Shown one piece after another: positions 3,692 to 59,504 of a DNA stretch of 64,000 nt. The DNA is from Verrucomicrobia bacterium LW23 (GTDB lineage: Bacteria; Verrucomicrobiota; Verrucomicrobiia; Methylacidiphilales; UBA1321), in assembly GCA_003054695.1 (NCBI GenBank), contig QAZA01000011.1:310001-374000 (forward strand), in the 5' to 3' direction. Position numbers and translations under genes: made by a program. The notes beneath the pieces are model-generated. The model made no database searches. It was not told where the DNA came from and saw nothing but the letters and a program-made list of their open reading frames with translations. How positions within the stretch are numbered: the stretch's first letter is position 1; the number at the start of each line of letters is the position of its first letter.

Positions 3692-3820
3692 GCGCACCAA
3701 GTTGGGACGCCAATGCGCCGGTGACGAGGAAATAATGCATCTTTTGCGCGCGATGCCACGAAAGCCGCCGCCCGGGCAAGGCTATCCTGCTTACGTTGCA
3801 ATTCCCACAGCTCCCCGGTT

Positions 3821-3922
3821 CCCCTTCCCGCCTTTGTGTCTTCGTGTCTTGGGGGTTAAAAATCCCCTTTGCAGGCAGATTTTTTTAACCACCAAGACAC
3901 GAAGACACAAAGGGAGAAGGGG
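3821..3922. repeat. long imperfect palindrome, type I, 'AAGACACGAAGACACAAAGG' word
   Basis: Arms of about 44 nt (3821-3864 and 3878-3922) are nearly complementary around a short centre. The same wording recurs at 47575-47697. It lies in the 578-bp gap 3692-4269, followed 95 bp later by a 164-nt type II element. No gene is seen in the gap. Confidence 0.85.
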
Positions 3923-4017
3923 AACTGCAGATTCGGCGCTTGATCTCCCCTGCATTTTTTGGGATAGAGCGCAGTCGCTCGGTGCTTTAATTGCGGATTT
4001 TCGTGCCGCATCGACTT

Positions 4018-4181
4018 CGACCAATTACCGGAATAAACCGGTACATTGGCGGGACGCTTTTGAGCGAGGGCGGCGTTGAGTCTTCGGTCATGCATTTTTC
4101 AAATGCACTCCCTCAGCCTCGCCTTGCCCTCATCTCAAAATCGCCTCCACCAATGTACCGGTTTATTCCGATAATTGGTCT
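4018..4181. repeat. 164-nt palindromic element, type II (copy 1)
   Basis: The element begins CGACCAATT and ends AATTGGTCT. It folds as one long imperfect palindrome with an apical hairpin GCATTT-TTC-AAATGC. It is nearly identical to 17441-17604 and equal in length to 50413-50576. TCGACT occurs on both outer sides (4011-4016 and 4182-4187), possibly a target duplication. Confidence 0.85.
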
Positions 4182-9287: not shown

Positions 9288-9339
9288 TAGTGTGCGCGCC
9301 GGAAGTCATCCCAAACGCGGTGGAGGGGCGGGGATTATG

Positions 9340-9470
9340 TAACCACGGAGCACACGAAGCACACGGAATTTGCTGAGGGAACGAAGGACGGAGGGTTGGT
9401 TGTCAACAGAGCGGTTTCTGCCCTCACCCCCCTTTCGTTCCCTCGGTAGATTCCGTGTGCTCTGTGGTTA
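9340..9470. repeat. long imperfect palindrome, type I, 'CCACGGAGCACACG' word
   Basis: Arms of about 50 nt (from 9340 and to 9470) pair imperfectly. The left arm carries an extra CACACGAAG unit. The wording matches 52241-52440 and partly 15029-15107. It fills most of the 326-bp gap between exbD and the xylosidase gene. Confidence 0.85.
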
Positions 9471-9509
9471 AACAATCCGCTTCCCCCAGACGGGTTCGCG
9501 ATTTTCGCG

Positions 9510-17418: not shown

Positions 17419-17440
17419 AGGGTTGCCCCTCTCTCGACTC

Positions 17441-17604
17441 AGACCAATTATCGGAATAAAGCGGTACATTGGCGGGACGCTTTTGAGCGAGGGCGGCGTT
17501 GAGTCTTCGGTCATGCATTTTTCAAATGCACTCCCTCAGTCTCGCCTTGCCCTCATCTCAAAATCGCCTCCACCAATGTACCGCTTTATTCCGATAATTG
17601 GTCT
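17441..17604. repeat. 164-nt palindromic element, type II (copy 2)
   Basis: AGACCAATT...AATTGGTCT, 164 nt, differs from 4018-4181 at only a few positions. One is a compensatory pair: AAACCGG to AAAGCGG on the left and CCGGTTT to CCGCTTT on the right, so pairing is kept. Confidence 0.9.
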
Positions 17605-42310: not shown

Positions 42311-42415
42311 GCATCCCCTTGGCGAAACTTTCCGCCCTTGGCGATGTTATCTGAAGGTCCGTAGATCCAAGGCAGATAGTATCGCCAAGGACGGAAAATT
42401 TCGCCAAGGGGATGC
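42311..42415. repeat. long palindrome, type I, 'TTGGCGAAACTTTCCGCC' word (copy 1)
   Basis: Arms of 43 nt begin GCATCCCCTTGGCGAAAC and end with the complement GGGGATGC. The surrounding 154 bp (42285-42438) are almost identical to 59354-59507. Confidence 0.9.
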
Positions 42416-42511
42416 AGCGGAAATGTCGACAGCCTCTAACTCTCAACTTAGCACAACGCTTCGAAATTGCAGCCATGCTCCCATGAGCTGGGAATCCGCG
42501 CGTACTCCCCC

Positions 42512-47324: not shown

Positions 47325-47574
47325 GCAGATATACTAAATAAAGTACGACCAAAAGAAAAGAGGAAGTTGATATTTAGATAAATCATATAGTTGTATAACA
47401 TCCCTCCGCGTAGCCAATAGCAAAGGTTGTTGGATAGATATAGATCAAATGAAATTCGGTCTCGCCTTGTCTCAGCCCAAAATCGTCCACTTCGGCGCTC
47501 GCGCGGACTTGTGGATTGACCTGGTGTCCCGTGTCGAGGGTCAGTAGACAGCTCATCATGCGTATTTTCCACGT

Positions 47575-47697
47575 CCCCTCCACCCCTTTGTGTCTTCGTG
47601 TCTTTATGGTTAAAATTCCCCCCCTCCGATTCTCTGCGGGTATGGGGATAGCGGATGGTTAACCACAAAGGCACGAAGACACAAAGGGGCGGAGGGG
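47575..47697. repeat. long palindrome, type I, 'AAGACACAAAGG' word (copy 2)
   Basis: Arms CCCCTCCACCCCTTTGTGTC... and ...GACACAAAGGGGCGGAGGGG pair imperfectly around GGTTAA boundaries. The wording matches 3821-3922. It lies in the 512-bp gap 47325-47836; the left half of the gap is AT-rich and shows no gene. Confidence 0.85.
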
Positions 47698-47836
47698 AAT
47701 GTATCTGATAATGCTTACTTCTGCGCAGGACAGTATTCGTGAGGCACTGGCACCTGCCAGGCTTTCCCGTTTTTCATCCACTCCCGCACAAATACGCTCG
47801 CACGCGTGCGGTCTGCGCGCTATGTTGGGGGCACGT

Positions 47837-50305: not shown

Positions 50306-50408
50306 CCTCCATGGCGAAGACTTTCTGCCCCTTGGCGGGAAAATCTGCTTCAGCCTCGCGGGTTTACAGATAACATCGCCAAGGGCGGAAAGTTTTCGCC
50401 AAGGGGGG
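50306..50408. repeat. long palindrome, type I, TTGGCG word (copy J)
   Basis: Its reverse complement aligns over its length with 51011-51120: CTTGGCGAAAACTTTCCGCC, a loop with GTAAACCCGC, then GCTGAAGCAGAT. It is thus an inverted copy. One arm is more degenerate. It is followed after 4 bp by a type II element. Together they fill the gap 50241-50596. Confidence 0.85.
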
Positions 50409-50412
50409 AATT

Positions 50413-50576
50413 AGACCAATTCGCACAGTTATTTGCTCTTTTTGCGGGCCGCTTTTGGTCTATGGCCGCACTGAAACTCCGGTCGAGTATTATCCTCATG
50501 CACTCCCTCCGTTTCAGCGCACCCATAGCCCAAAATCAGCTCCGCATAAAGCGCAAATAACTGTGCGAATTGGTCT
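50413..50576. repeat. 164-nt palindromic element, type II (copy 3, diverged)
   Basis: AGACCAATT...AATTGGTCT, again 164 nt. The arms next to the ends differ from copies 1 and 2 but pair with each other (TCGCACAGTTATTTG and CAAATAACTGTGCGA). Shared internal words are CGCTTTTG, ATGCACTCCCTC and CAAAATC. It ends 20 bp before the GxxExxY start. Confidence 0.9.
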
Positions 50577-50596
50577 TACAGATAAAGGGAGGACTT

Positions 50597-51001
50597 GTGA
50601 CAGAGGACGAGATTGGTGCGATTATTGTTCAGGCCGCCTATGACATCCACTGCGACCTGGGGCCGGGGATGCTTGAATCAGTCTACGAGGTTGTCCTGGC
50701 TGGAATGTTGCGAGAGAAAGGGTTACGGGTCGATCGGCAGTACGCGATCCCCATTGTCTATAAGGGAACGAAGTTTGATGAAGGCTTTCGCGCCGATCTG
50801 TTTGTTGAGAGTAAGGTTATCATCAAGGTGGAGGCGGTGCAGGTGCTTGCAAATGCGCATCGCAAGCAGCTGCTTACCTACCTCAAGCTAGCTGGAATCA
50901 GGCTGGGTTATCTCAGCAATTTTTGGGGAGATCGTATCAAGGGCAATATAGAGAGAACGGCCAACGGATTGAATGAATCCGGCCGGAACTCTCCCCTTTG
51001 A
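50597..51001 (+). CDS. GxxExxY protein (PDDEXK-like)
   Basis: The 134-residue protein has the name-giving motif GMLESVY (Gly24, Glu27, Tyr30), then FRADLFVESKVIIKVEAVQV and HRKQLLTYLKLAGIRLGYLS. Family members look like small PDDEXK nucleases of unknown function with D...E-x-K; Asp67 is present. At the expected E-L-K position this copy reads K77-V-E79, so the acidic and basic residues are exchanged and activity is doubtful. GTG 50597 is preceded by GGGAGGA, a strong ribosome binding site. It is flanked by inverted palindromes on both sides. Confidence 0.85.
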   Translation: MTEDEIGAIIVQAAYDIHCDLGPGMLESVYEVVLAGMLREKGLRVDRQYAIPIVYKGTKFDEGFRADLFVESKVIIKVEAVQVLANAHRKQLLTYLKLAGIRLGYLSNFWGDRIKGNIERTANGLNESGRNSPL

Positions 51002-51010
51002 TTCTATCCG

Positions 51011-51120
51011 CCCTCCCCCTTGGCGAAAACTTTCCGCCCTTGGCGATGCTATCCGTAAACCCGCAAGGCTGAAGCAGATAACATCGCCAAGGGCGGAAAG
51101 CTTTCGCCAAGGTGAAGGGG
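51011..51120. repeat. long palindrome, type I, TTGGCG word (copy L)
   Basis: CCTTGGCGAAAACTTTCCGC is matched by the complementary right arm. The loop GTAAACCCGCAAGGCTGAAG is shared, inverted, with 50306-50408. The rest of the gap 51002-51392 up to pyrH is leader-like and without a gene. Confidence 0.9.
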
Positions 51121-52240: not shown

Positions 52241-52440
52241 ATTTTTTAACCACGGAGCACACGGATCACACGGAATTTAAGAGGGGACGAAAGTGAAGAG
52301 GAATTTTTGGGCTATTGTTGTGCCGATTTCTCGTTCTGTGGCGCAAAACTTTAAGCCACAAAAGGATAGTCCTTTCTAAATTCCCTCTCTTCGCCCCTCC
52401 GTAAATTCCGTGTGCTTCGTGTGCTCCGTGGTTAAATTTT
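52241..52440. repeat. long palindrome, type I, 'CCACGGAGCACACG' word with a long centre
   Basis: Arms of about 60 nt (TTTAACCACGGAGCACACGG... and ...TGCTCCGTGGTTAAA) enclose about 80 bp. CCACAAAAGGAT occurs directly before the left arm and again in the centre. It separates pyrH and frr. Confidence 0.85.
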
Positions 52441-52587
52441 CCCCTGCGTTTTGTTGTGATTATTTACCCTGCGGTTTACGCTGGATCTTTGCGGCGGCGT
52501 GCGCTATGTTTGACGCTTTCCCTAATTGCAATTTTGATTGGTTTCCTCCGGAAAGTGATCAGCCCCAACAGCTAACCTCAGTACATT

Positions 52588-53336: not shown

Positions 53337-54239
53337 ATGGCTCTCTCAGTCTACCAAATCGAAGAAGGCAGCAAACTCGCACCGCGCTTTGATTTGCATC
53401 CGTACATCCCCTGCATCACCGTGGATGCCACTTCGGGGGAGGTCCTTATGCTCGGCTTTATGACGCCCGAGGCGCTGGAGAAGACCATCACCACAGGCAA
53501 GGCCACCTACTACAGCCGCTCGCGCAAGAAAATCTGGGTCAAAGGCGAGGAATCCGGCCTGGTGCAGACGGTGAAGGAAGTGATGATAGACGACGACCAG
53601 GACTGCGTCCTCATCAAGGTCGATGTCGCCGGCGGCGCGAGCTGCCACGTCGGTTACCGCTCCTGCTTCTACCGCAAGGTTAAGGAAGGCAAGACGTGGG
53701 ACAAAGCCAACGGCCACGCCGGCGCGGCGCTGGAGGACCTGGACTTTACGATTGCCGAGAAAACGTTCGACCCGCTCGTGACCTACGGCGCCCACGCCGC
53801 TCCCTCGCCGGAGCTGTTTAAGCTGGAAGAGGGCGCCCGCCTGATGCCGCGCTTCGACATCAACGAGTACCTGCCCTGCATTACGCTGGACGCCACCAGC
53901 GGCGAAGTCCTCATGCTCGGCTACATGACGCCCGAAGCGCTGGAAAAAACCATCGCCACCAAAAAGGCCACTTATTACAGCCGCAGCCGCAAAAAGCTGT
54001 GGGTCAAAGGCGAGGAAAGCGGCCTGACCCAGCACGTGCAGGAAGTGATGATCGACGACGACCAGGACTGCATCCTCATCCGCGTCAACGTCACCGGCGG
54101 CGCCAGCTGCCACGTCGGCTACCGCTCATGCTTCTACCGCAAAGTAAAGCCCGGCACCGCCGACGAGCTGGAGTTTACCATTGCCGAGAAAGTGTTTGAC
54201 CCGGTGAAGGTGTACGGCCCCCACGCCGCCACGCATTAA
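53337..54239 (+). CDS. hisI: tandem phosphoribosyl-AMP cyclohydrolase (two HisI domains)
   Basis: HisI opens the adenine ring of PR-AMP in histidine synthesis. Here one 300-residue protein holds two complete copies (about 18-115 and 171-270), each with SRSRKK-W-KGEESG, DDDQDC (85-90 and 240-245) for metal binding, and GGASCHVGYRSCFYR (cysteines at 103/110 and 258/265). The two are about 87 percent identical over 92 residues. Normal HisI has one copy, alone or fused to HisE. The start is ATG 53337, which follows a leader without a ribosome binding site. HisE is not fused. Confidence 0.93.
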   Translation: MALSVYQIEEGSKLAPRFDLHPYIPCITVDATSGEVLMLGFMTPEALEKTITTGKATYYSRSRKKIWVKGEESGLVQTVKEVMIDDDQDCVLIKVDVAGGASCHVGYRSCFYRKVKEGKTWDKANGHAGAALEDLDFTIAEKTFDPLVTYGAHAAPSPELFKLEEGARLMPRFDINEYLPCITLDATSGEVLMLGYMTPEALEKTIATKKATYYSRSRKKLWVKGEESGLTQHVQEVMIDDDQDCILIRVNVTGGASCHVGYRSCFYRKVKPGTADELEFTIAEKVFDPVKVYGPHAATH

Positions 54240-59379: not shown

Positions 59380-59485
59380 GCATCCCCCTTGGCGAAACTT
59401 TCCGCCCTTGGCGATGTTATCTGAAGGTCCGTAGATCCAAGGCAGATAGTATCGCCAAGGACGGAAAGTTTCGCCAAGGGGATGC
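59380..59485. repeat. long palindrome, type I, TTGGCG word (copy 2 of the 154-bp block)
   Basis: Same palindrome as 42311-42415. The block 59354-59507 differs from 42285-42438 by about three single-base changes or indels. Its right end overlaps the stop codon of the gene at 59505. Confidence 0.9.
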
Positions 59486-59504
59486 ACGGAAATGTCGACA
59501 GCCT

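Follow-up and report, generated by a model that had tools for sequence, protein, structure and literature searches.

What is a small gene of the GxxExxY family doing between two inverted copies of one palindrome? The question is raised by a block in the window analysed here, a stretch of 64,000 nucleotides of Verrucomicrobia bacterium LW23 (contig C11 of the 6.6 Mb draft genome G000). An earlier note on this DNA had read the layout as that of a mobile unit, and had supposed that the nuclease-like GxxExxY family moves or maintains the palindromes. In the open full-text literature, a search that leaves subscription journals outside, we found no description of GxxExxY genes with palindromes and no function assigned to the family, only two passing mentions; the class of elements described below is thus apparently undescribed so far.

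Results

The block in the window

Comparison of the window with itself aligned 50329-50407 with 51015-51093 over 79 nt that are 90% complementary. The loop is included in this match, so the two copies are oppositely oriented and the gene does lie enclosed by inverted copies of one palindrome (Table 1), although the left, outer arm of the upstream copy (~50306-50340) is degenerate. This type I palindrome occurs at ~40 places in the 6.61 Mb genome, and the two flanking copies, 87% alike, are mutual nearest relatives among them; the next best match is 84% and most lie at 78-82%. By our own estimate from ~40 copies in 6.6 Mb, any one gene would have type I copies within 300 bp on both flanks with a chance of ~1e-5, and the block is in excess of chance expectation.

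The type II element that had been placed between palindrome and gene is indeed there, with 17 near-full-length copies in the genome at 91-100% identity; the copies inspected are all 164 bp long with identical ends, at which no clear target duplication was found. It is a separate repeat and a bystander, and probably entered the block late: if it is taken away, the palindrome ends ~20 nt ahead of the start codon. Two further type II elements lie in the window at 4011-4181 and 17434-17604; elements of this type measure 164-171 bp, have AGACCAATT ends and fall into at least two subfamilies. The window block is a worn, composite form, in which two whole palindromes and a probable later type II insertion surround a motif-altered gene. 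Whole palindromes on both sides are a minority form, found also at the GxxExxY loci L115 and L096; most loci have arm, gene and arm in one inverted repeat.

Table 1. Features of the block and of related gene-less palindromes in the window (positions of the window).
Feature	Position	Strand	Basis or remark
Type I palindrome, upstream copy	50306..50408	-	79-nt inverted match to 51015-51093; outer arm degenerate
Type II MITE-like repeat, 164 bp, 35-nt inverted ends AGACCAATT...AATTGGTCT	50413..50576	.	genome copies
Shine-Dalgarno AGGGAGGA	50585..50592	+	sequence
GxxExxY gene, 134 aa, GTG start, PD-(D/E)XK-like	50597..51001	+	TIGR04256, PF13366
Type I palindrome, downstream copy, 43-nt arms, 23-nt loop	51011..51120	+	starts 9 nt past stop codon
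Gene-less type I palindrome	42311..42416	+	self-comparison, genome copies
Gene-less type I palindrome	59384..59486	+	self-comparison, genome copies
Gene-less palindrome, AACCACGGAGCACACG-type arms (arm family of the GxxExxY gene of contig C39, L098)	9330..9471	.	
Gene-less palindrome, arms TTTAACCACGGAGCACACGGATCACACGGA in 9-nt units (C39 GxxExxY arm family)	52245..52444	.	
Gene-less palindrome, CACGAAGACACAAAGG-type arms	3819..3922	.	
Gene-less palindrome, CACGAAGACACAAAGG-type arms	47574..47698	.	

The same genome holds four GxxExxY genes, each beside a different palindrome family: type I at the window gene, a GTTGCGTGTCTGCC-type on both sides of L002, a CCCCACTTAGCGG-type on one side of L003 and a TTTAACCACGGAGCACACGGA-type around L004. 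Sites matching the TTTAACCACGGAGCACACGGA-type arm with at most 3 mismatches number 178 in the genome, and the reversed pattern gives none; paired sites make gene-less palindromes, several of them within the window and some nested, one in the loop of another. Arm copies distant from the gene occur at 31 per Mb in their own genome vs 4.5 per Mb in other genomes.

Two side observations were made in this genome. Nested gene-less palindromes include the loci L335-L346, of which L335 encloses what is, by eye only, an antitoxin-like ORF. Positions 53361-54239 of the window hold one ORF with two tandem domain copies (a 300-nt repeat, 77% identical) that are HisI-like (phosphoribosyl-AMP cyclohydrolase) by eye.

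The GxxExxY protein

The gene itself proved genuine, with a Shine-Dalgarno sequence as proposed: the product matches TIGR04256 (120 bits, cut-off 35; E=5e-35) and PF13366 (118 bits, cut-off 22; E=3e-34). These are its only profile matches; the searches found no HUH tyrosine transposase (TnpA-REP) and no known transposase domain in the window ORF. In two family alignments (A1, A2) the GxxExxY motif, D67 and E77-x-K79 are conserved, E77 and K79 in at least 90% of relatives. The window copy keeps D67 and has K77-V-E79 in place of the ExK motif (residues 77-79), and from this it is probably inactive as a nuclease or dependent on other copies.

A structure model (pLDDT 90) gave as best Foldseek matches Cas4 SSO0001 (E=4e-3, probability 1.0) and ACE1, with lambda exonuclease and MGME1 further down, all at modest E-values (fold identifiers 4ic1, 9iac and 1avq); a sequence search for solved relatives returned no meaningful match. 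The modelled fold and the motif together point to a nuclease role. Two other assignments were tried and set aside. Searched as a defence system, the protein fell into no specific PADLOC family, giving weak Cas4-type matches and one DRT-associated PDDEXK match, and for a phage link there was no match in phage records and one weak match in PHROGs.

Enclosure by inverted arms across bacteria

GxxExxY genes were surveyed in three sets (order, phylum and named), the named set coming from a single-protein scan and thus representing one protein clade. A gene was scored as enclosed when its upstream 250 nt, aligned locally to the reverse-complemented downstream 250 nt, gave a best score of at least 15; ORFs of the same DNA served as the control, the first control set being allowed 12 nt more inward. 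By this measure 135 of 195 GxxExxY genes are enclosed vs 13 of 831 control ORFs (1.6%; Fisher p=6e-104), and for 147 of the 195 the real score was never reached in 60 shuffles of the flanks. PIN toxin genes of the same order, taken as a small-gene control, gave 0 of 29. About 30% of GxxExxY genes have no detectable enclosure. The statistical link between the family and palindromes for which the earlier note had suggested a survey is thus present, and most GxxExxY genes other than that of the window do have palindromic arms.

The family is present in 71 of 145 genomes sampled across the phylum, about half, and the named set spans Planctomycetota, Verrucomicrobiota, Desulfobacterota, Methylococcales, Nitrosomonas, Mariprofundus, Cloacimonadota, Omnitrophota and others. 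Four records are labelled as plasmids, with enclosing arms in Bacteroides finegoldii, Bernardetia and Gemmatirosa and the upstream arm only in Sphingomonas. A plain hairpin scan near GxxExxY genes had yielded only 14 matches, with long palindromes confined to the 150 bp next to the gene and absent at 150-750 bp; only reading of the flanks revealed the arms on opposite sides of the gene.

At a typical locus ACCACGAAGgacACGAAGagcACGAAG stands upstream of the gene and its reverse complement downstream. The arms consist of about three units of 8-10 nt, mostly 9 nt (lag-9 autocorrelation z=23; z 7.4 and 9.2 in the order-only and phylum-only sets, the former with a broader period of 8-10 nt). The upstream arm is purine-rich and adjoins the start codon, and the downstream arm follows the stop codon at a median gap of 9 nt. 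Arms match within a locus and differ between loci, and their similarity tracks protein identity (Mantel r=0.57, 0 of 500 permutations, over 8107 pairs with dissimilar upstream flanks), a correlation that fits co-inheritance as a unit, recognition, or both, and that would not by itself prove recognition. Mismatches between arms are G.U and A.C in equal measure (134:136 in total; 70:84 and 64:52 in two sets), which, on sequence, is expected of symmetry at the DNA level and not of a selected RNA stem. The elements occupy short intergenic gaps, mostly in the sense direction: by simple ORF calling, 103 genes between co-directional neighbours are sense vs 16 antisense. In one nuo operon (L126, G035) three junctions carry three distinct GxxExxY elements with three arm sequences.

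Turnover at orthologous sites

The earlier note had asked for comparison of the same locus in related strains. For the window block itself this gave no clean result: it is absent in the ten relatives checked, but these have not kept the cca|pyrH adjacency, so that the window site offers no clean empty-site comparison. Presence and absence are clean at two other junctions, nuoE|nuoF and gatA|gatB. Across twelve genomes of the family, nuoE|nuoF holds a GxxExxY element in six, including G038 and G039, and a bare gap of 3 bp in G033, 18 bp in G040 and 27 bp in G034, with a longer element-free gap in G000; the empty G040 is congeneric with the filled G038 and G039. In G036 the junction holds a gene-less palindrome with other arms. 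At gatA|gatB there is a GxxExxY gene in G011 and, in G013, an unrelated four-helix-bundle (23S IVP) gene set in arms of its own, between flanks 95-98% identical. A further site filled in G013 has no insert in G010 and a gene-less palindrome in G011, and another G011 site is empty in G010. The sites of such elements in relatives are therefore not fixed but empty or differently filled. The class combines terminal inverted repeats with an occupancy that varies between genomes at orthologous sites, which supports the mobile-unit layout for the element class. No target-site duplication was identified in the filled/empty pairs, which were too diverged or had an original gap of only a few bases.

Contents are also exchanged between arms that stay in place. 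At the purH site of G011 and G013 the flanks are 98% and the arms 96-98% identical, whereas the GxxExxY gene is only 70% identical, so the arms persist while their contents change. A second shared site of the two genomes has a gene 68% identical between flanks of 94-97%, and at a third the gene is 99% identical. At the xseA site of both genomes the arms of a gene-less palindrome nearly equal those of their GxxExxY element (L123/L124). Most of the genomes compared are metagenome bins, so strains may be mixed inside a bin; such mixing would leave the allele differences standing.

Three further loci or groups of loci were seen in passing. Between L131 and both L132 and L127 the GxxExxY genes are 94-95% identical and the flanks only 79-91%, the opposite of the purH site. 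The gatA|gatB junction (L147, L307), with homologous flanks at L159, L186, L209, L215 and L220, is one operon junction that is filled repeatedly in genomes far apart; most of them carry GxxExxY there and one carries IVP. At nuoE|nuoF in G031 (L356) a different small membrane-protein-like ORF sits in similar unit-array arms, and more gene types may share this architecture.

IVP genes in the same architecture

IVP genes (PF05635) of the same groups are enclosed by inverted arms in 33 of 57 cases (for example L307, L312, L317, L436 and L444), and the enclosed genes lie between protein-coding genes; PF05635 has no match in the window genome. The arms around IVP genes repeat with a period of 7 nt (z=18 at lag 7), with G.U:A.C mismatches of 7:10 and 17:24. 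Two unrelated proteins, GxxExxY and IVP, thus share one layout, each with its own unit length, and the intergenic IVP elements seem to be the nearest sister design. The 7-nt arrays may be related to the heptamer repeats of cyanobacteria and, as a guess, of Beggiatoaceae; in the literature on the latter the TAACTGA heptamers are direct repeats with no link to IVP.

Discussion

With fair though far from complete confidence, we favour the view that a GxxExxY gene and its inverted arms make up a mobile element, in which a Cas4-like PD-(D/E)XK protein acts on the arms and of which gene-less palindromes are non-autonomous forms; the same reading minus the nuclease step we hold more firmly. The gene and the arms that hug it would form one compact element of ~450-600 bp. 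Its product, similar to Cas4 and lambda exonuclease, would recognise the units arrayed in the arms around its gene and would cut or process the ends of the element or of the target, an action on the arms that we infer. In this way new copies of the element and of its gene-less relatives would reach gene junctions, or recombination through the arms would exchange them; exchange between near-identical arms can be ordinary homologous recombination. IVP genes in arms of 7-nt units may be a second lineage of the same design.

It may be instead that the palindrome comes first, as the feature that moves or marks a hot spot and that a host factor spreads, and that its loop has captured GxxExxY, IVP and other small ORFs as cargo. 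Indeed, IVP genes have the same architecture (33/57) and use the same junction as GxxExxY, gene-less palindromes are nested in the window genome, arms and flanks remain at purH while the gene changes, and a different ORF lies within arms at nuoE|nuoF in G031. To our knowledge the IVP protein is not known as a nuclease, and since it shares the architecture nonetheless, a host factor could be the enzyme that acts on the arms. Captured cargo would hardly explain, however, why the arms lie tight against start and stop codons (median stop-arm gap 9 nt), why arm sequence tracks protein kinship with a unit length specific to each family (9 vs 7 nt), or why the PIN toxin genes that abound in these genomes were not captured (0/29). 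We regard this explanation as unlikely, but as one to be taken seriously.

For the window alone, and even if other such blocks are units, two palindromes might have landed independently beside an old and dying GxxExxY gene. The broken ExK motif, the degenerate arm and the type II element inside the block would all suit such a history, as would the fact that whole palindromes rather than single arms flank the gene, at a cca|pyrH adjacency not conserved in relatives. Yet the flanking copies are mutually closest (87% vs at most 84% for any other), whole palindromes flank the gene at L115 and L096 as well, and, with the type II element left out of account, both copies are near the gene; independent landing is accordingly a rather poor account of the block.

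The arms could also pair in the RNA, like those of 23S rRNA intervening sequences, into a stem that isolates or processes the GxxExxY message in operon transcripts, for example through RNase III. The intervening sequence of Coxiella is an ORF in terminal inverted repeats, and RNase III cuts its stem (PMC4990558); the sense orientation within operons and the purine-rich upstream arm beside the start codon agree with such a role. Selection on RNA would however favour G.U over A.C mismatches, which is not what the counts show (70:84 and 64:52, and for IVP 7:10 and 17:24), and gene-less copies are scattered genome-wide, so that we consider an RNA stem improbable. Lastly, that any small gene in palindrome-rich intergenic DNA would look enclosed is scarcely credible: gene-less palindromes are common in several of the genomes surveyed, but enclosure was found for 1.6% of control ORFs and 0/29 PIN genes, the score of 147/195 genes was reached in 0/60 shuffles, and long palindromes lie within 150 bp of the gene with none at 150-750 bp.

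One of the known systems near to the proposed GxxExxY element is RAYT/REP, in which palindromes are dispersed through intergenic DNA, a single-copy gene lies between oppositely oriented members of its own palindrome family, and gene-less copies are non-autonomous. The window gene is likewise flanked by copies of a genome-dispersed palindrome family, a strategy comparable to RAYT/REPIN. The partners differ, GxxExxY having a PD-(D/E)XK fold and RAYT being an HUH tyrosine enzyme, and GxxExxY arms form a single long inverted repeat around the gene, which is built of 9-nt units and specific to the locus. REP and BIME palindromes with RAYT (TnpA-REP) transposases, and REPINs, are the subject of PMC2817692, PMC3116915 and PMC8266576. 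A short ORF in terminal inverted repeats is also the layout of 23S rRNA intervening sequences, where the IVP/S23 ORF (PF05635) lies in repeats of ~28 bp and spread is sporadic and horizontal (PMC4990558). The GxxExxY loci that we read lie between protein genes and not in a 23S rRNA helix, however, the ORF is PD-(D/E)XK and not the IVP four-helix bundle, and the arm mismatches give no sign of pairing at the RNA level. With insertion sequences and MITEs the elements share terminal inverted repeats, one ORF and gene-less miniature derivatives; they differ in an ORF with no known transposase domain, in that no target-site duplication was found, and in their many locus-specific arm sequences. Cas4 and lambda-exonuclease-like nucleases are nearest in fold, with weak Cas4 profile matches besides, but GxxExxY is a small single-domain protein of ~120-135 aa, and our unsystematic reading noticed no CRISPR or phage recombination genes beside the loci.

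A broader proposal, in which our confidence falls somewhat short of even, is that these are members of a widespread and undescribed class of minimal elements, in which a small ORF lies within locus-specific inverted arrays of short units, the protein family would set the unit length (~9 nt for GxxExxY, 7 nt for IVP), and the protein would read the unit and drive exchange at gene junctions; gene-less derivatives would account for many palindromic repeats of environmental bacteria. Through its association with inverted unit arrays the GxxExxY family, which occurs in many other phyla too and on a record of the gut bacterium Bacteroides finegoldii that is labelled as a plasmid, gains a concrete candidate substrate. 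The same association offers an origin for many interspersed palindromes and suggests a larger group of elements, with the intervening sequences of 23S rRNA as one of its branches. We know of no nuclease class of PD-(D/E)XK type that drives a single-gene palindromic element; if our reading is true, GxxExxY would add one.
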